This document shows positions 4,333-12,673 of a DNA stretch of 64,000 bases, piece after piece. How positions within the stretch are numbered: position 1 is the first letter of the stretch; every line of letters begins with the position of its first letter. A model generated the notes under the pieces. It had not been told where the DNA came from. It searched no databases and saw only the letters and a list, made by a program, of their open reading frames with translations. The stretch is from Pycnococcus provasolii (taxonomy: Eukaryota; Chlorophyta; Pseudoscourfieldiophyceae; Pseudoscourfieldiales; Pycnococcaceae), in assembly GCA_938743325.2 (NCBI GenBank), contig OW568878.1, forward strand, positions 496,001 through 560,000, read 5' to 3'. The translations under genes and the position numbers were made by a program.

Positions 4333-5178
4333 TTACCACCACGCAGCCTCGCCGTCCGTTCCTGCGACACGAATGCCGTCGGTACCGGCAACCACCACCT
4401 GGTATGTCATGCCCACGAACAGGCCGTGGTCGACGACGCCGACGGTGTTTTTGAGCTGCTCCGCCGCCGCCGCCGTGTCCGCGATGGGCGTATCGAAGTG
4501 CAGGTCAACGAGGTAGTTGCCGTTGTCAGAGATGGCAATCTCGTCGCCATCTGGCTTGTTTGTTGCGGACGATCCCATGCGAAGCACGGGCTTGCAACCC
4601 TTAAGCGCCGGCAGGCTTCCGACGACGCGCATCGTGTGCTCGTGGCAGAACGGCGTGATCTCCACCGGCAGAGGGAATCCCGGGCCAAGCGCTTTGCACA
4701 GCTTGGACTCGTCGACAATAACGATGAACTTCTTCGCCATGATCTCCACCATCTTCTCGCGAAGAAGTGCGCCGCCACCACCCTTGACGAGGAAAAGGCT
4801 GGGGTCCACCTCGTCCGCACCGTCGATCGCCACGTCGAGCTCCGAACGCTCGTTGAGCGTGCACAGCGGGATGCCCAGCTCCTCCGCCTGCTCCTTGGTT
4901 CGCACGGACGTCGGGATGCACATGATGTCCTTCAGCGTGCCATCCTTAAGAAGCTGTCCGACGCGCTCGACAGCGAACGCCGCCGTGGAGCCGGTTCCGA
5001 GTCCCACCGTCATGCCGGACTTGACGTGGTCGTCGACAGCCTTGTATCCGACAAGCTTTTTGAGTTCGTCCTGCGACGCCGCCATGGCTCGGACGTTGGT
5101 GCGGCCTATTTTGTGCGTGTTGCGGCGAGGTGCGGTGGTGTTGTTGAGCTTGAGAGAGTGTGAGGTGCGGAGAGCCAT
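4333..5178 (-). CDS. RPI: Ribose-5-phosphate isomerase, plastid type
   Basis: RpiA-type isomerase converting ribose 5-phosphate and ribulose 5-phosphate in the Calvin cycle and pentose phosphate pathway. Hallmarks: GLGTGSTA at residues 59-66, DGADEVD at 119-125 (catalytic Asp and substrate contacts) and KGGGGALLREK at 132-142. I start at the Met at 5178 (MALRTSHSLK), giving 281 residues with a basic, Ser/Thr/Asn-rich plastid transit peptide of about 30 residues; the frame is open to 5346, but that extension is antisense to the tRNA-Cys gene and has no conserved features. Everything upstream of residue 85, including the promoter, is repeated at 12329-12584 on the other strand by the large inverted repeat. 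Confidence 0.92.
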   Translation of the reverse strand: MALRTSHSLKLNNTTAPRRNTHKIGRTNVRAMAASQDELKKLVGYKAVDDHVKSGMTVGLGTGSTAAFAVERVGQLLKDGTLKDIMCIPTSVRTKEQAEELGIPLCTLNERSELDVAIDGADEVDPSLFLVKGGGGALLREKMVEIMAKKFIVIVDESKLCKALGPGFPLPVEITPFCHEHTMRVVGSLPALKGCKPVLRMGSSATNKPDGDEIAISDNGNYLVDLHFDTPIADTAAAAEQLKNTVGVVDHGLFVGMTYQVVVAGTDGIRVAGTDGEAAWW

Positions 5179-5347
5179 TGCTAGGGGGAGTGTGTGTGAG
5201 TGTGTTGGGATCGTCGAGGATCGGATAACGATAACGATACTATAACGATACTGGACGGTCGAAATCGCGAGCTCGGGAGTCGGGAGAATGACATTGCGAT
5301 TTAATTGTTTACTTGTGTACCTCAGCGCTATTAGGTTATCGCCCACT

Positions 5348-5569
5348 ATCGTGTGGTCGCTGGTTCAATTCCGGCCCGTCGCTGTATTACGATGGATTGG
5401 AACAAAATACACGAGATGAACGTCTCGAACTCCGACACGAACTTTTTTAACCCGCTCGCGGCGGTGTAAGTTTTTACGCTCATTTCTCTTCTTTACGCCA
5501 AAGTCGCAAGGCAACCTCTAATCTTCACTTTTTATTTTTAGAGCTCAGTGGTAGAGCATACGATTGCAA
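5348..5569 (+). tRNA. trnC-GCA: Permuted tRNA-Cys(GCA), 3' half before 5' half, with an intron at position 8/9
   Basis: The 3' half comes first: 5348 (A38), anticodon-stem strand TCGTG 5349-5353, variable loop TGGTC, T arm GCTGG-TTCAATT-CCGGC 5359-5375, acceptor strand CCGTCGC 5376-5382, discriminator T 5383. After 74 bp comes the 5' half: acceptor strand GCGGCGG 5458-5464 and T8 5465, a 76-bp insert 5466-5541 beginning GTAAGT and ending TTTTTAG, then A9 and D arm GCTC-AGTGGTA-GAGC 5543-5557, A26, TACGA 5559-5563, loop TT-GCA-A 5564-5569. Assembled, this is a 72-nt tRNA: acceptor pairs 7/7 with one G-U, anticodon stem 5/5 with one U-G, GCA anticodon and U73 both fit Cys. A box, B box and a T8 terminator are present. 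Caveat: internal T5-T6 runs. Confidence 0.75.
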
Positions 5570-5588
5570 CGCCTCTTGCTTTCGCTTA

Positions 5589-5596
5589 TTTTTTTT
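5589..5596 (+). terminator. Probable Pol III terminator of the permuted tRNA-Cys
   Basis: A run of eight T residues lies 20 nt after the last tRNA-derived base of the 5' half, the place expected for a Pol III terminator if the transcript runs from the 3' half to the 5' half. Shorter T runs occur inside the gene (T6 at 5443-5448; T5 runs inside the 5466-5541 insert), so this may not be the only stop used. Confidence 0.5.
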
Positions 5597-5869
5597 GCAC
5601 TATTTGCACAAGATGATGTCGCGTTGACACAATAACATGAAGGCTGAATTGCTAAAAACAAAAACATGGCGACGGAGCGAGCGTGCGAGCCAAATTTCAC
5701 CTTAATAGCAAGATTGCAAGTGATGGCGAAGCATACCAAGCACCACTACCAACGAGTTCTGTGAAAGTGACAAGTGCACGGGCTTGGTTTGATGGTTTTA
5801 GTTGCCCGGGCTTCAAGGCTTGGCTAAACTCTATTTGTTACAAAAAATACAATTTGGGAGAAGGCGTTC

Positions 5870-8800
5870 TTAGCGGCGACCGTATCGACTCGTATTGAGA
5901 CGTGGGAGGTACATATGTTGTTCCCCTACCATGGATGGATGATTGGGATTATAATTAGGATCATTCCACTCCGAGCGACTCGCGAGCATGCGCGTGCCAC
6001 GAGCAAGCTGAGTCTCGAGGATGCGAAGCGTACGCTCCTTCCTCTTGAGCGATTCCTGCATCAATGTAATCCTCGCCTCGGCCGCAGCAGCCATAGCCGT
6101 CTCCGCGTCCTCAATCCTCTTCTCGGCTTCGAAGTGCTCAAAGCGTGCAGAAGCCTCCGCGGCCATAGCTCTCGCCGTGGCCTCGGCTGCAGCCGCTTCT
6201 GCAGCCACAGCCCTCGCCTCGGCCGAAGCCAAAGCCGCAGTCACATGCTTTTCGGTCTCGACATACTCAAGGCGTGTAGAAGCATCTTCGAATGATTTGC
6301 CATCATCAACGTCAATGTCACCGTACTCTAGCTGCGGAGGAGATGCGTGGAAGATACCCACACGATGCGCCTCATCTGCAAGCGCTTCGAGAATGTGCGT
6401 GAGCGATGCAACGCGAAAGTCGTTGTACACCACCCATCGCAACGGTTCCACGCCTTGCCAACGCTCATCTGCAGATAGCATGTGGTGTTGCACGCCGTCG
6501 TAGCCTTTGCGCTCGTCCACCTGGCAAAGGGCAATCACGCGGCGACCTTCTTGCGATCGCAGGGACGCGACCAGATCCGAAAGCTCGTCCAGGGCATCTT
6601 GGGTGACAAAAACCACGACGAGGTGCGATGATTTGTCATCTGCAGAAAATGTGCATACGAGCTTACGGCAGACACGTCGCATATCTGCAACAGCCGTCTT
6701 AGCTTGTGGCATGGCGCTACTCGATGCAAGCATCGTCAGGCGAGCTCCCTCAGGAACACGCAATGCCGCGGCTAGTAGTGACGCGTTCGAGGGTGGTGGC
6801 GCCAAGTCCATTCGCGCAAGAATGCGCGTCAAGCTGACTGCGTCGAGCATCGCGTCGTGGTATAGTGGAATAGAGTCGACGCCAAAGATCCAATCTTTGG
6901 CTTCAGGAAAGTCAGCGTACAGCCCATTATCTTGCATTTGCTCCTTCAACTCGTCAATATAGCTGCCAAAGCTTGCGTATCCTCCTCGCTCTGGACTGGT
7001 TTCGTGCACAAGAACTAGCTTACGTCCTGAATCAAAAGCTGTGCGAAGCTCGAGCTTGCAGAACCATCTCTTGAAGTATCCTTCTGTGAGAAGCAGCAAG
7101 AAGTGGCGATGTTTTCGGACACCTTCTTTCATCGCATCTTCGCTGATTTGTTTCGCATCAACATCTAGCCAGATATGACGTTCAAGCCAAGGCTGTTCGG
7201 CTACGAGAGACGCTTTCAGTTCACGTGCGGATACGCCACCCCCGCCTTCCTGGTAGTGAGATACAAAGAGGCCAGGAGACTCTGAACCATATACGCCACG
7301 AATGCCTTTGGAAACATCCTCCTGGAAGAAGGAGTGGCGCAGTGCATCTATCATCGATGGCGGTCTCTCAGAAGCATCTGCACGCAAAAGCCATCGAATC
7401 AGGTCTACAAGTGCCTCAGCACGAATGTCGTCTACAAATGGCGGCGATGGTAGCATCTTCTCGAGCATCGTCTCATTCCAGCTAGTGGCAAGCGTATCGA
7501 GCTGCACGGATTGCGCGATATCGTCATTCAGTTCCACGTGAAAGAGTGTTTGTCCGCTGTATAGCAGAAAGAGAAGCACGCCGAAACTCCACAGATCGTA
7601 TGCCGGAGATGCGAGGTATGATTTGATGTCTTTATTAGCCCGTATGGCACGCGCCATTTCCGGTGGACAGTATCCCGTCGATGGTTGTTTCGATCCGAAT
7701 GCGCATCCAATTTGGCACGCACAGTCGAGATCAATTAGCAAGTATCGATTGCCACACTGCATGATATTGAGAGGCTTGAGGTCACTGTGGATGAATCCTT
7801 GCTCGTGCACGTGCTGCAAAGCCATCGCCACTTCCGTCGCCACCTGTCGTACCTTGAGAATATCTGTGCCTGCAAAGTGTTCATGCGCAAGGGCAGCGTG
7901 CAACCCTTGATCGGCGCGTGGGAGCACCAGGCAGCACGTGATGGATGAAGCGTCGTCGATGTGATGTGCGAGATACTTTTGCACAGATGATGTGAAGGAT
8001 GATGATGAGGAGGAGGAGGGGTCAATTTCGAACGATGTATGCGAACGAAGCACATTGAGAATATACTTTGTGTCTAGTGCATGTCGTTGACGAAAAGTAA
8101 ACTCGCGATCGAAATGGCCACGATCACGCATGAATTTAAGCGCGACGGGAGTCGACGTTCCTTCGTGGTGGTCAACAGCAAAGATGACCACGCACGTGCG
8201 ACTGCGATGTGCAGGTACGCCGGCATGAAGCTCGTAGCGCCCAAGGAAGTGTCGCGCTGCTTTAAGAATAGCAAGCGTGTTGTGGCCTTTTGCGCCTTGG
8301 CCGATGACCATGTCGATGGGAGAAAGGCCAGAATTATTTTTTGTCGTTGTGCTGTCGGGACAAGCTGCGGCCAGACACTCGACGACGTCGAGCGGCGCTT
8401 TGTTTGTAATCGCATAGTGCAGAGGCAGACAGCTGTTCTCATCCTGGCACTTGGCGCTGTCGGGACACGCTCGGAGCAGGCTCTCGACGACTTCGAGTGG
8501 CGCATCGTTGCTCAATGCTTTGTGCAAAGGAAAATCGCCGATCTTACCCTGGCACTTGGCGCCGTCGGGGTAAGCCGCGAGCAGACGATCGATGACGTCG
8601 AGCGGCGCTTTGCCTCTCACCGCCACGTGCAGAGGCAGATCGCCGTTCTCATCCTGGCACTTGGCGCCGTCGGGATGAGCCGCGAGCAGGCGATCGACGA
8701 CGTCGAGCGGCGCTGTGTTGTATTCAATCGCATAGTACAGAGGCAGACGGCCGTTCTTATCCTGGCACATGGCGCCGTCGGGGTAAGCCGCGAGCAGGCG

Positions 8801-10348
8801 ATCGACGACGTCGAGTGGCGCTTTGTTTCTAATCGCATAGTACAGAGGCAGACGGCCGTACTTACCTTCCTGGCACTTCGCGCCGTCGGGGTAAGCCGCG
8901 AGCAGGCGATCGACGACGTCGAGCGGCGCGTTGTTTGTAATCGCAATTTGCAGAGGCAGTCTGCGGTTCTCATCCTTGCAATGGGCGCCGTCGGGGTAAG
9001 CCGCGAGCAGGCGATCGACGACTTCGAGCGGCGCTTTGCCTCTCACCGCCACGTGCAGAGGCAGTCCGCCGTACTTATCCTCGCACTTCGCGCCGTCGGG
9101 GTAAGCCGCGAGCAGGCGATCGACGACGTCGAGCGGCGAGTTGTTTGTAATCGCATAGTGCAGAGGCAAATGACCGTCCTTATCCTCGCACTTGGCGCCG
9201 TCGGGGTGAGCCGCGAGCAGACGATCGAAGACGAGCGGCGATTTCTTATCAATCGCAATACGCAGAGGCAGACGGTCGTCCTCATCCTGGCACTTCGCGC
9301 CGTCGGGGTGAGCTGCGAGCAGACGATCGATGATGTCGAGCGGCGACTTCATCTCAATCGCCCTGTGCAAAGGCAGACGGCCATTCTCATCTTGGCACTT
9401 CGCGCCGTCTGGATGAGCCGCGACCAGACGTTCGATGACGTCGAGCGGCACTTTGCTTGTAATCGCATTGTGCAGAGGCAGATGGCCGTCCTTATTCTGG
9501 CACAAGGCGCCGTCGGGATGAGCCGCGAGCAGGCGATCGATGACGTCGAGCGGCGCTCTGTATATAATCGCAATGTGCAGAGGCAGATGGCCGTCCTTAT
9601 CCTCGCACTTGGCGCCGTCGGGATTAGCCGCGACCAGACACTCGACGACTTCGAGCGGCACTTTGCTTGTAATCGCATTGTGCAGAGGCAGATGGCCGTC
9701 CTTATTCTGGCACAAGGCGCCGTCGGGATGAGCCGCGAGCAGGCGATCGACGACGTCGAGCGGCGCTCTGTATATAATCGCAATGTGCAGAGGCAGATGG
9801 CCGTCCTTATTCTGGCACTTCGCGCCGTCGGGATGAGCCGCGACCAGACACTCGACGACGTCGAGCGGCACTTTGCTTGTAATCGCATTGTGCAGAGGCA
9901 GATGGCCGTTCTTATCCTGGCACAAGGCGCCGTCGGGGTAAGCCGCGAGCAGGCGATCGACGACTTCGAGCGGCGCTTTGGATTGCAACGCATAGTGCAG
10001 AGGTAGATTGCCTTGATTATCCGTACACTTGGCGCCGTCGGGGTGAGCCACGAGCAGGCGATCGACGACGGCGAGCGGCGCTTTGGATTGCAACGCCATG
10101 TGCAGAGGCAGACGGCCGAAAGTATTCTTGCACTTAACGCCGTCGGGGTAAGCTGCAAGCAGACATTCTATGACACTAAGCGGCGCTTCGCAACTTGCTG
10201 CGTCGTGAATGAGAAGCACTTTCATAAAAACGTCCTTCTCCATCGCCAGTTCCGGATATGTCTGCACGGCTTCGATGACGTCGTCGTATCTCTTATTTTC
10301 AATACAATGACGCACATAGTAGACGCCCGGATCGGATTCCACGACCAT
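5870..10348 (-). CDS. Ankyrin repeat - protein kinase - TIR domain fusion protein
   Basis: The 1492-residue protein has four recognisable parts. Residues 54-685 hold about 18 ankyrin-like repeats of 35 residues (consensus APLDVVDRLLAAHPDG, then CQDKNGHLPLHYAI). Residues about 700-1005 form a protein kinase domain: Lys728 in VALK, catalytic loop HSDLKPLN at 854-861, metal-binding DLD at 873-875 instead of DFG, PPE at 895-897, DLWSFG after it. Residues about 1025-1160 form a TIR domain: GLFVSHY box at 1026-1032, IWLDVD strand, and FCKLEL with Glu1100 where NAD-cleaving TIRs carry the catalytic Glu. A further alpha/beta region (about 1203-1330) and an Ala-rich coiled coil (about 1355-1445) follow. 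I infer a cytosolic sensor or immune-type signalling protein; partner and ligand are unknown. Its last 229 codons lie in the inverted repeat. Confidence 0.85.
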   Translation of the reverse strand: MVVESDPGVYYVRHCIENKRYDDVIEAVQTYPELAMEKDVFMKVLLIHDAASCEAPLSVIECLLAAYPDGVKCKNTFGRLPLHMALQSKAPLAVVDRLLVAHPDGAKCTDNQGNLPLHYALQSKAPLEVVDRLLAAYPDGALCQDKNGHLPLHNAITSKVPLDVVECLVAAHPDGAKCQNKDGHLPLHIAIIYRAPLDVVDRLLAAHPDGALCQNKDGHLPLHNAITSKVPLEVVECLVAANPDGAKCEDKDGHLPLHIAIIYRAPLDVIDRLLAAHPDGALCQNKDGHLPLHNAITSKVPLDVIERLVAAHPDGAKCQDENGRLPLHRAIEMKSPLDIIDRLLAAHPDGAKCQDEDDRLPLRIAIDKKSPLVFDRLLAAHPDGAKCEDKDGHLPLHYAITNNSPLDVVDRLLAAYPDGAKCEDKYGGLPLHVAVRGKAPLEVVDRLLAAYPDGAHCKDENRRLPLQIAITNNAPLDVVDRLLAAYPDGAKCQEGKYGRLPLYYAIRNKAPLDVVDRLLAAYPDGAMCQDKNGRLPLYYAIEYNTAPLDVVDRLLAAHPDGAKCQDENGDLPLHVAVRGKAPLDVIDRLLAAYPDGAKCQGKIGDFPLHKALSNDAPLEVVESLLRACPDSAKCQDENSCLPLHYAITNKAPLDVVECLAAACPDSTTTKNNSGLSPIDMVIGQGAKGHNTLAILKAARHFLGRYELHAGVPAHRSRTCVVIFAVDHHEGTSTPVALKFMRDRGHFDREFTFRQRHALDTKYILNVLRSHTSFEIDPSSSSSSSFTSSVQKYLAHHIDDASSITCCLVLPRADQGLHAALAHEHFAGTDILKVRQVATEVAMALQHVHEQGFIHSDLKPLNIMQCGNRYLLIDLDCACQIGCAFGSKQPSTGYCPPEMARAIRANKDIKSYLASPAYDLWSFGVLLFLLYSGQTLFHVELNDDIAQSVQLDTLATSWNETMLEKMLPSPPFVDDIRAEALVDLIRWLLRADASERPPSMIDALRHSFFQEDVSKGIRGVYGSESPGLFVSHYQEGGGGVSARELKASLVAEQPWLERHIWLDVDAKQISEDAMKEGVRKHRHFLLLLTEGYFKRWFCKLELRTAFDSGRKLVLVHETSPERGGYASFGSYIDELKEQMQDNGLYADFPEAKDWIFGVDSIPLYHDAMLDAVSLTRILARMDLAPPPSNASLLAAALRVPEGARLTMLASSSAMPQAKTAVADMRRVCRKLVCTFSADDKSSHLVVVFVTQDALDELSDLVASLRSQEGRRVIALCQVDERKGYDGVQHHMLSADERWQGVEPLRWVVYNDFRVASLTHILEALADEAHRVGIFHASPPQLEYGDIDVDDGKSFEDASTRLEYVETEKHVTAALASAEARAVAAEAAAAEATARAMAAEASARFEHFEAEKRIEDAETAMAAAAEARITLMQESLKRKERTLRILETQLARGTRMLASRSEWNDPNYNPNHPSMVGEQHMYLPRLNTSRYGRR
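8293..10189 (-). repeat. 105-bp tandem repeats encoding ankyrin-like units
   Basis: About 18 tandem units of 105 bp (35 residues; two units carry one extra residue and one lacks one) make up the N-terminal half of the kinase-TIR gene. Units 3 to 8 alternate in pairs: units 3, 5 and 7 end LPLHNAITSK, units 4 and 6 end LPLHIAIIYR, giving a 210-bp higher-order period. Such near-identity points to recent expansion by unequal exchange. The unit is two residues longer than the usual 33-residue ankyrin repeat. Confidence 0.85.
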
Positions 10349-10707: not shown

Positions 10708-11637
10708 TTCACCCTGATGCACTTACGGCGAAGAACAGGGATACCCAAACTTTGATTGACATCGCCATCGGCCAAGGCGCAAAAGGCCACAACACGCTTG
10801 CTATTCTTAAAGCAGCGCGACACTTCCTTAAGCGCTACGAGCTTCATGCCGGCGTACCTGCACATCGCATTCGCACGTGCGTGATCATCTTTGCCGTCGA
10901 GCACCACGAAGGAGCGTCGATTCCCTTCGCTCTTAAGTAAATTCATGCGATCACAAGAAGGCCGCCGCGTGATTGCCCTTTGCCAGGTGGACGAGCGCAA
11001 AGGCTACGACGGCGTGCAACACCACATGCTATCTGCAGATGAGCGTTGGCAAGGCGTGGAACCGTTGCGATGGGTGGTGTACAACGACTTTCGCGTTGCA
11101 TCGCTCACGCACATTCTCGAAGCGCTTGCAGATGAGGCGCATCGTGTGGGTATCTTCCACGCATCTCCTCCGCAGCTAGAGTACGGTGACATTGACGTTG
11201 ATGATGGCAAATCATTCGAAGATGCTTCTACACGCCTTGAGTATGTCGAGACCGAGAAGCATGCGGCTGCGGCTTTAGCAACGGCCGAGGCGAGGGCTGT
11301 GGCTGCAGAAGCGGCTGCAGCCGAGGCCACGGCGAGAGCTATGGCCGCGGAGGCTTCTGCACGCTTTGAGCACTTCGAAGCCGAGAAGAGGATTGATGAC
11401 GCGGAGACGGCTATGGCTGCTGCGGCCGAGGCGAGGATTACATTGATGCAGGAATCGCTCAAGAGGAAGGAGCGTACGCTTCGCATCCTCGAGACTCAGC
11501 TTGCTCGTGGCACGCGCATGCTCGCGAGTCGCTCGGAGTGGAATGATCCTAATTATAATCCCAATCATCCATCCATGGTAGGGGAACAACATATGTACCT
11601 CCCACGTCTCAATACGAGTCGATACGGTCGCCGCTAA
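10708..11637 (+). pseudogene. Decayed partial copy of the ANK-kinase-TIR gene
   Basis: The plus strand reads a diverged copy of the region joining the last ankyrin unit to the kinase (10708-10940; IGQGAKGHNTLAILKAARHF is shared, and I count 10 differences in 62 residues), hits a stop at 10938-10940, and then continues at 10946 in another frame with a nearly identical copy of residues 1264-1492. Kinase and TIR domains (about 1.56 kb of the parent) are missing. The open frame 10891-11637 could give a 248-residue protein of the C-terminal alpha/beta region plus coiled coil, but its first residues are out of frame with the parent. I treat it as a pseudogene made of two parts of different age. Confidence 0.8.
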
Positions 11638-11910
11638 GAACGCCTTCTCCCAAATTGTATTTTTTGTAACAAATAGAGTTTAGCCAAGCCTTGAAGCCCG
11701 GGCAACTAAAACCATCAAACCAAGCCCGTGCACTTGTCACTTTCACAGAACTCGTTGGTAGTGGTGCTTGGTATGCTTCGCCATCACTTGCAATCTTGCT
11801 ATTAAGGTGAAATTTGGCTCGCACGCTCGCTCCGTCGCCATGTTTTTGTTTTTAGCAATTCAGCCTTCATGTTATTGTGTCAACGCGACATCATCTTGTG
11901 CAAATAGTGC

Positions 11911-11918
11911 AAAAAAAA
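11911..11918 (-). terminator. Probable Pol III terminator, second tRNA-Cys copy
   Basis: The A8 run on the plus strand is the T8 run on the minus strand, 20 nt past the 5' half of the second permuted tRNA-Cys. It is identical to 5589-5596 through the inverted repeat. Confidence 0.5.
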
Positions 11919-11937
11919 TAAGCGAAAGCAAGAGGCG

Positions 11938-12159
11938 TTGCAATCGTATGCTCTACCACTGAGCTCTAAAAATAAAAAGTGAAGATTAGAGGTTGCCTTG
12001 CGACTTTGGCGTAAAGAAGAGAAATGAGCGTAAAAACTTACACCGCCGCGAGCGGGTTAAAAAAGTTCGTGTCGGAGTTCGAGACGTTCATCTCGTGTAT
12101 TTTGTTCCAATCCATCGTAATACAGCGACGGGCCGGAATTGAACCAGCGACCACACGAT
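11938..12159 (-). tRNA. trnC-GCA: Second copy of the permuted, intron-bearing tRNA-Cys(GCA)
   Basis: This is the inverted-repeat copy of the gene at 5348-5569 and I see no base difference over the tRNA, spacer or insert. Minus-strand order: 3' half 12159-12124, spacer, acceptor strand and T8 12049-12042, insert 12041-11966, D arm to position 37 at 11965-11938. Because both copies are intact they give no independent test of structure, but their conservation agrees with function or recent conversion. Confidence 0.72.
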
Positions 12160-12328
12160 AGTGGGCGATAACCTAATAGCGCTGAGGTACACAAGTAAAC
12201 AATTAAATCGCAATGTCATTCTCCCGACTCCCGAGCTCGCGATTTCGACCGTCCAGTATCGTTATAGTATCGTTATCGTTATCCGATCCTCGACGATCCC
12301 AACACACTCACACACACTCCCCCTAGCA

Positions 12329-12673
12329 ATGGCTCTCCGCACCTCACACTCTCTCAAGCTCAACAACACCACCGCACCTCGCCGCAACACGCACAAAATA
12401 GGCCGCACCAACGTCCGAGCCATGGCGGCGTCGCAGGACGAACTCAAAAAGCTTGTCGGATACAAGGCTGTCGACGACCACGTCAAGTCCGGCATGACGG
12501 TGGGACTCGGAACCGGCTCCACGGCGGCGTTCGCTGTCGAGCGCGTCGGACAGCTTCTTAAGGATGGCACGCTGAAGGACATCAGGAGAAACCCTACACG
12601 GGATACGCCGAACAGCCAAAACCCCCAACTAGGGAGGTATCAGGAAGTGGTCTCCCGACGCAGCGGGCAGTAA
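12329..12673 (+). pseudogene. Truncated copy of ribose-5-phosphate isomerase
   Basis: Residues 1-85 are identical to plastid RPI (transit peptide plus the GLGTGSTA motif), then after TLKDI at 12584 the frame runs into unrelated sequence and stops at 12673 with 29 non-homologous residues. The DGADEVD and KGGGGALLREK motifs are missing, so the product cannot be an isomerase. The promoter is copied as well, so a short transcript with an intact transit peptide could still be made. Confidence 0.9.

Follow-up and report, generated by a model that had tools for sequence, protein, structure and literature searches.

A 64-kb window of the Pycnococcus provasolii genome (the whole 64,000-nucleotide stretch of DNA that was analyzed, contig C18 positions 496001–560000) contains a tRNA-Cys(GCA) gene on the plus strand that is circularly permuted, with its 3′ half encoded before its 5′ half. 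The sequence makes it highly probable that this is a working nuclear gene permuted at the 37/38 junction with a spliceosomal GT-AG intron separating position 8 from position 9, in a genome where scrambling of tRNA genes is widespread and introners have invaded some of them.

Organization of the tRNA-Cys gene

Positions 38–73 come first, at 5348–5383 (ATCGTG TGGTC GCTGG TTCAATT CCGGC CCGTCGC T), as seen by direct reading and by reassembly. A putative spacer of 74 nt (5384–5457), delimited by the reassembly, lies between this 3′ half and the acceptor 5′ strand GCGGCGG (5458–5464), which together with U8 at 5465 constitutes positions 1–8 (5458–5465). Positions 9–37 start with A9 and extend from 5542 to 5569, with the anticodon GCA at 5566–5568. 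The GCGGCGGT sequence and the D arm are separated by 76 nt (5466–5541) that carry the signals of a U2-type intron: GT-AG ends, a GTAAGT donor, a TTTTTAG acceptor and a candidate branch site, CTAAT (5518–5522), read by eye, whose branch A, A5521, is 20 nt ahead of the acceptor by the same reading. All of these features are on the plus strand.

Once the halves are ordered and the intron is removed, ARAGORN calls the rearranged sequence tRNA-Cys(gca) with a score of 122.9. In the unrearranged window, neither ARAGORN nor Rfam at the gathering threshold found anything. The acceptor stem (7/7 pairs, one G-U), the anticodon stem (5/5, one U-G), the GCA anticodon, U73 and the variable loop TGGTC are all present in the reassembled molecule as they had been described. 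The T stem, described as perfect, is paired at 5/5 positions and is perfect only if its one G-U wobble is allowed. The predicted length of 72 nt is reached by the cloverleaf, but only after excision of the 76 nt at 5466–5541; the proposed two-piece gene was incomplete in that it missed the GT-AG intron at 8/9. This overlooked intron is the most unusual part of the gene. Direct reading, reassembly and the ARAGORN call together confirm a permuted tRNA-Cys(GCA) with its 3′ half upstream, and circular permutation with a 37/38 junction is supported as the best reading of the sequence.

Chance and boundary controls

For the excision scans, ARAGORN treated the sequence as circular, with the intron position set to 37/38. 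Under these settings the Cys locus gave no tRNA call without an excision, and 1 of 21 GT-AG excisions gave a tRNA with a score of 111.6. When any stretch of 40–130 nt could be removed, 18 of 20,565 excisions produced a tRNA, all of them Cys(GCA), and the GT..AG excision was one of two that tied for the best score. Twelve shuffled loci gave no tRNA call in 47,877 excisions. Among 39 background loci drawn from this genome (117,481 bases, a set that excludes loci with known tRNA genes) none of 2,184 unspliced windows was called, and the 9 calls from 69,264 GT-AG-excised variants all came from one window with a best score of 101.2, against 111.6 for Cys under the same settings; no background call scored 104.8 or higher. 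The shuffled and background values uphold the earlier judgment that chance juxtaposition of the two halves is unlikely.

The same unrestricted scan produced a tRNA in 16 of 12,557 excisions at Ala(TGC), with GT..AG one of two tied for best, and in 3,905 of 15,105 at Thr(AGT), where GT..AG ties for best. At Ser(AGA), 73 of 14,650 excisions gave a tRNA and the GT..AG excision (104.8) fell below another (105.3). The Thr and Ser(AGA) results are loose because an intron within or close to the anticodon is under weak constraint.

An overlapping mRNA that contains the GT-AG stretch, with the tRNA match arising by chance, would be suggested by a 25-codon ORF (5392–5469) that crosses GCGGCGG into the donor. 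Joined past the intron, this frame stops within a few codons by eye, nothing in the background control attains the Cys score, and a GT-AG intron occupies the same 8/9 position in Ala(TGC) and Lys(CTT), so this explanation is left with almost no probability. A short protein encoded by 5392–5469 was itself ruled out because the frame, read by eye, stops just past the splice.

A second copy and the search for other tRNA-Cys genes

The gene lies in one arm of an inverted repeat (4910–6561, plus strand, 1,652 nt, 99% identity), and repeat comparison places the other arm at 10946–12597 on the minus strand. The arms differ at 14 positions in 1,652 nt and at none between 4923 and 6109. The second copy of the gene, inverted at 12159–11938, is identical in sequence to the first: positions 38–73 at 12124–12159, positions 1–8 at 12042–12049, a GT-AG intron 100% identical to that of copy 1 at 11966–12041 and positions 9–37 at 11938–11965, all on the minus strand. 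A ribose-5-phosphate isomerase gene (4333–5178, minus) flanks the Cys gene on one side, and on the other is an ORF of 1,492 codons (5870–10348, minus) that appears ankyrin-repeat kinase-like by eye. Up to 18 tandem 105-nt repeats, ankyrin-like by eye, lie inside this ORF at 8278–10260 of the window.

Inverted pairs about 3.5–8 kb apart are common among the Pol III genes (Cys, Trp, Val, Lys, Ser and U6), and pattern positions suggest that Arg and Ala(TGC) probably form such pairs as well. Inverted Pol III gene pairs also occur on contigs C3, C7, C9, C16, C26 and C34.

A conventional tRNA-Cys elsewhere had been named as a finding that would weaken the prediction. None was found among the 15 places in the genome that carry GAGCANNNGAYTGCA, and only the two window copies are tRNA-like; each place was judged with about 60 bases on either side, so a gene split inside this 15-mer, or differing in it, escapes the search. 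These results bear on whether the locus is a dead or decaying relic, duplicated with its surroundings, while another gene decodes cytosolic Cys codons. The presence of both copies in a recent inverted repeat fits such a history, and a Cys gene split within the searched 15-mer would be missed. The relic explanation is nevertheless very unlikely, because the structure is complete with all stems paired, the splice sites and terminator are intact, the 15 pattern places hold no other tRNA-Cys candidate and many other tRNA genes share the same architecture.

Permuted tRNA genes across the genome

The genome surveyed comprises 32,333,900 bases in 46 contigs. The available part of the description of P. 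provasolii CCAP190/2 (ucPycProv1.2) gives 44 chromosomes, 32,253,916 bp, a longest scaffold of 1,490,684 bp and organelle genomes of 24.3 and 80.2 kb (PMC11130579); contigs C1, C45 and C46 have 1,490,684, 24,277 and 80,243 bases. The main text of that paper makes no use of the word tRNA.

Seventeen of the 20 nuclear places found with D-arm patterns are permuted, a result that describes a sample and not a census because the patterns require an unbroken D arm. The pattern GCTCARYN{0,1}GGNAGAGC matched 16 places, 14 of them nuclear, against 24 for the reversed control. Each of the 14 nuclear places reads as a tRNA gene; together they represent 9 distinct genes, and 11 of the 14 are permuted: Thr(AGT), Val(TAC), Val(CAC), Val(AAC), Ala(CGC), Lys(CTT) and Cys(GCA). 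The two others in this set, Trp(CCA) and Tyr(GTA), have introns at 37/38 and are not permuted. The Ser/Leu D-arm pattern matched 6 places, all permuted, against 0 in its control. Eight T-arm places near a T9GC run (L101–L108) and the T-arm locus L076 were added, and the 3′ half also comes first in Lys(TTT), Ala(TGC), His(GTG), Asn(GTT), Ile(TAT), Leu(TAA), a probable Gln and a putative Arg. The T-arm pattern alone was useless as a gene finder (175 places versus 225 in the reversed control) and the T9GC terminator pattern alone was weak (166 versus 140).

Seventeen permuted genes were assembled by hand, and ARAGORN accepts 15 of them, rejecting His and Ile. Leu(TAG) (L097) is called by ARAGORN yet stands outside the 17, as do Arg (L101) and L108. 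The acceptor stems of the assembled genes pair at 119/119 positions, compared with a mean of 3.36/7 when strands are exchanged between genes; the acceptor strands were picked by hand, which makes the complete pairing a consistency check. The Leu(TAA) assembly has a 31:39 mismatch. Locus L098 (C34:484150–484850) carries tandem permuted tRNA-Ser genes, CGA and AGA, and L104 (C15:645700–646050, minus) is a permuted tRNA-His whose D loop is unusually long, by about 7 extra bases as judged by eye. The Rfam tRNA model recognized at least three nuclear places in the genome (63 of 587 first-look candidates were scored), which suggests that ordinary finders may leave the tRNA inventories of picoplanktonic algae badly incomplete.

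GT-AG introns in tRNA genes

Eight of the 17 assembled permuted genes together contain 13 GT-AG introns of 69–80 nt. Cys and Ala(TGC) are interrupted at 8/9, Ile(TAT) at 6/7, Thr(AGT) at 30/31 and Ser(AGA) at 29/30; Ser(GCT) has introns at 28/29 and in the variable arm, Lys(CTT) at 8/9, 33/34 and in the acceptor 3′ strand, and Ala(CGC) at 31/32, 47/48 and 64/65. The donor is GTAAGT in 7 introns, GTACGT in 4 and GTAAGA and GTAAGG in one each, and the third Lys(CTT) intron is 77 nt long with the acceptor CACAG. GTACGT is also the donor in a protein gene of the window, presumably a GDP-mannose epimerase from its resemblance.

Intron boundaries were scored with the halves ordered, the other introns removed and the excision ends unrestricted; Ile was left out because ARAGORN rejects the assembled gene. 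GT-AG excision ranks first or tied for first (ties of 1–4) in 10 of the 12 introns. The two exceptions, at ranks 132 and 65, both belong to variable arms, a region with little structural constraint. When GT-AG excisions were tried in combination, Ala(CGC) was recovered with exactly its three introns as the best of 32 combinations. For Ser(GCT) the best of 34 removed its two introns, with the anticodon misread, and Lys(CTT), whose anticodon is ambiguous to ARAGORN, tied with another anticodon reading among 144 combinations. Nothing was recovered in this way for Ile or L108, and for Arg the sole result was an unspliced call whose identity is doubtful. No call came from six shuffled runs, each limited to 1–12 combinations. 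At the Gln locus L107 (C7:498750–499260) the best combination removes three GT-AG introns around a five-base microexon, CACCA; 124 combinations were tried, 7 gave a call and ARAGORN reads the anticodon otherwise. The locus is a probable permuted tRNA-Gln with three GT-AG introns.

Relation to spliceosomal introns and introners

The Ile 6/7, Ala(CGC) 64/65 and Ser(AGA) 29/30 introns occupy different tRNA positions and are 83–96% identical over 65 to 73 aligned bases. The Ile intron, used as a query one base short of the acceptor end, has at least 30 matches in the genome. Among the 30 matches listed, all start within three bases of the donor, 24 reach query base 72–74 and are thus end to end, and at least 4 are sampled tRNA genes. 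Five family copies outside the sampled tRNA genes were cut from GT to AG, which opened a reading frame across the junction in 5/5 cases (the intron end of one, L112, was read by eye). A Pfam match spans the junction in 3 of the 4 peptides tested (dynein AAA_9 twice and FAD_binding_4 once), and the fourth gave no match. By their open frames and Pfam matches, these elements look like protein-gene introns of the spliceosomal kind. The family combines near-identical copies dispersed over many loci with insertion of the whole intron, both hallmarks of introners, and from their sequences its members in Ile(TAT), Ala(CGC) (at 64/65) and Ser(AGA) appear to be introner-type spliceosomal introns. Two dynein heavy chain copies on contig C24 (L109 and L110) have near-identical introners at the same codon boundary.

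A BLAST search with the Cys intron against 108 loci and the window matched only the two Cys copies. The spliceosomal nature of this intron is argued from its splice sites, its branch-site candidate and the company of the other tRNA introns.

The U6 gene (L100, C34:514050–514550, minus) is interrupted between ACAGAGAA and GATTAGCATGG by a GT-AG intron of 161 nt and has T9GC at its end. Its best Rfam match is 32.4 bits, below the cut-off of 44. The intron sits in what we take to be the ACAGAGA/ATTAGC region of the U6 motif. It also contains GGGTTCAAATC, which is B-box-like.

The 37/38 junction

A mark of tRNA introns in eukaryotes is the pairing of position 32 with intron base −3. In permuted genes the leader takes the place of the intron end. 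At the end of the Cys leader (5345–5347, plus), A5345 (−3) can pair with U32 (5564), and 5346, 5347 and A38 form the 3′ bulge. The 32:−3 pair is present in 16 of the 17 permuted genes, compared with 2–8 of 17 at ten other offsets; C32 is opposite G in 10/10 genes and U32 is opposite A or G in 6/7, with Val(CAC) lacking the pair. Anticodon-intron pairs are mentioned in the available part of a review of permuted tRNA genes (PMC3978253).

The Cys junction keeps the anticodon stem, the three-base bulge and the 32:−3 pair, and its helix has 2/4 pairs (1,0,1,0). The original prediction saw no clear bulge-helix-bulge (BHB) here, which holds for the helix but not for the 32:−3 pair and the bulge; the inner four-base helix is complete in just 5 of the 17 permuted genes. 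Folding leader against trailer in search of a classic BHB gave no common outer helix.

Endonuclease geometry was defined as an exon-exon helix of at least 4 beside the 3′ bulge plus a pair at −3. It occurs at 16/17 permuted junctions, 15 of them at the standard position, compared with 1/13 GT-AG introns, the Lys(CTT) acceptor intron. The Cys intron (5466–5541) lacks it, with a helix of 3, two inner pairs and a non-standard offset, and with the acceptor CACAG the third Lys(CTT) intron has no endonuclease geometry. The distribution of this geometry between junctions and introns indicates that two signals mark two kinds of cut.

This separation weighs on a permuted tRNA-Cys with an ordinary BHB intron at 8/9 that is cut by the endonuclease, as in Cyanidioschyzon merolae, with coincidental GT-AG ends. 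Endonuclease-type introns have been described in permuted genes (PMC3978253, available part), and the genome has two matches to the tRNA endonuclease (PF01974). Such an arrangement is unlikely here given the near absence of endonuclease geometry from the GT-AG introns and its presence at the permuted junctions, the place of GT..AG among the best-scoring boundaries in 10/12 introns and the membership of three tRNA introns in one family with protein-gene introns.

Transcription signals

A weak copy (TGTGTACC, two mismatches) of the upstream element TGTGTCAC, a possible Pol III promoter element, lies at 5314–5321 on the plus strand. An element with at most one mismatch to TGTGTCAC occurs upstream of 10 of 23 genes (tRNAs and U6), compared with a shuffled mean of 0.81 and a maximum of 4 in 300 rounds; TGTGTCAC was chosen from the same 23 upstream regions, and the count describes more than it tests. 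The U6 copy, like that of Cys, has two mismatches. An external promoter would explain the transcription of genes whose internal boxes are reversed and split, and one has been argued for the permuted tRNA genes of C. merolae (PMC3978253, available part). Loss of TFIIIC as the cause is unsupported, as a B-block TFIIIC match is present.

A second leader motif, GGGATACCGGTTC, is found with 0–2 mismatches in 7 of 23 regions, a count that has no control comparison, and is perhaps an external B-box-like element. It is upstream of Ser(TGA), Leu(TAG), Lys(TTT), Ala(TGC), Ile, Gln and Arg (L095, L097, L102, L103, L106, L107 and L101).

Most of the tRNA genes read, and U6, are followed by a T7–T11 run and then G; Ser(CGA) has T9 and then C. 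The T8GC run at 5589–5598 (plus) is the likely Pol III terminator of the Cys gene. Internal T5/T6 runs in the Cys unit (5443–5448, 5471–5475, 5529–5533 and 5535–5539) might stop Pol III early, and the U6 intron contains T6–T7 runs. These internal runs lead to the prediction that Pol III here stops only at longer runs or in a different context.

Discussion

Much of the cytosolic tRNA set of P. provasolii is, judging from the DNA, likely to be permuted and partly invaded by introners, so that maturation would need both the spliceosome and the tRNA endonuclease and some genes would pass through three spliceosomal events plus circularization. For Cys, Pol III would transcribe the leader, 3′ half, spacer, acceptor strand with U8, intron, remainder of the 5′ half and trailer, in a transcript that may run from the upstream element to the T8GC run. 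The splice sites and the related introns suggest that the spliceosome excises 5466–5541 and so completes the 5′ half. With the anticodon stem and the 32:−3 pair presenting the 37/38 junction, the tRNA splicing endonuclease would then remove leader and trailer, and a ligase would join 37 to 38 to make a circle. RNase P and tRNase Z would remove the 74-nt spacer before CCA is added. This RNase P/tRNase Z path has been proposed for other algal permuted tRNAs, for which both the circular form and the tRNA with its CCA tail have been observed (PMC3978253, available part).

This pathway has several consequences if it is correct. It would mean that introners can colonize tRNA genes and that the spliceosome is required for making tRNAs while its own U6 RNA also has an intron. 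These genes would also offer a natural system for studying the persistence of tRNA genes that lack intact internal promoters. On current understanding, introns in nuclear tRNAs are removed by a protein endonuclease that recognizes structure and GT-AG introns are removed by the spliceosome, and one gene that needs both would break this division. Literature searches confined to openly licensed papers gave no title or abstract opening that reports spliceosomal introns or introners in nuclear tRNA genes. The word tRNA is absent from the main text of the introner paper PMC9860276, and "permuted" is absent from the available part of the Chloropicon paper PMC12301720.

Permuted tRNAs were reportedly first described by Soma in 2007 and Maruyama in 2010. 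The available part of the review counts 34 permuted tRNA genes in seven species, and the statement in the original prediction that prasinophytes, the group to which P. provasolii belongs, have them is borne out by the permuted Cys(GCA) genes of O. lucimarinus, O. tauri and M. pusilla (PMC3978253, Table 1). The type II (37/38) genes of Ostreococcus and Micromonas, Cys(GCA) included, have the same 3′-first order and 37/38 junction, and the 74-nt Cys spacer of P. provasolii equals the longest in the table available there (PMC3978253). In contrast to those genes, the 5′ half of the P. provasolii Cys gene is additionally split by a GT-AG intron, and the sampled genes are mostly permuted with up to three GT-AG introns per gene. 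The permuted Ser gene of O. lucimarinus has a 56-nt intron without the central helix (PMC3978253, available part), and this intron deserves re-examination.

The extent of disruption has a parallel in C. merolae, where most nuclear tRNA genes are disrupted (34/43), some are permuted as well as intronic and intron positions are odd (PMC3978253, available part). The C. merolae introns are BHB introns of 11–69 bp for the tRNA endonuclease according to the same text, whereas those of P. provasolii measure 69–80 nt, begin with donors of the GTAAGT/GTACGT type, end in AG and for the most part have no endonuclease motif. In fission yeast, U6 snRNA carries mRNA-type introns (PMC10484740, available part); P. 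provasolii has them in tRNA genes as well as in U6. The near-identical copies throughout the genome that comprise a whole intron from GT to AG resemble the introners in the available part of PMC9860276, from which the P. provasolii elements differ in having copies inside tRNA genes.
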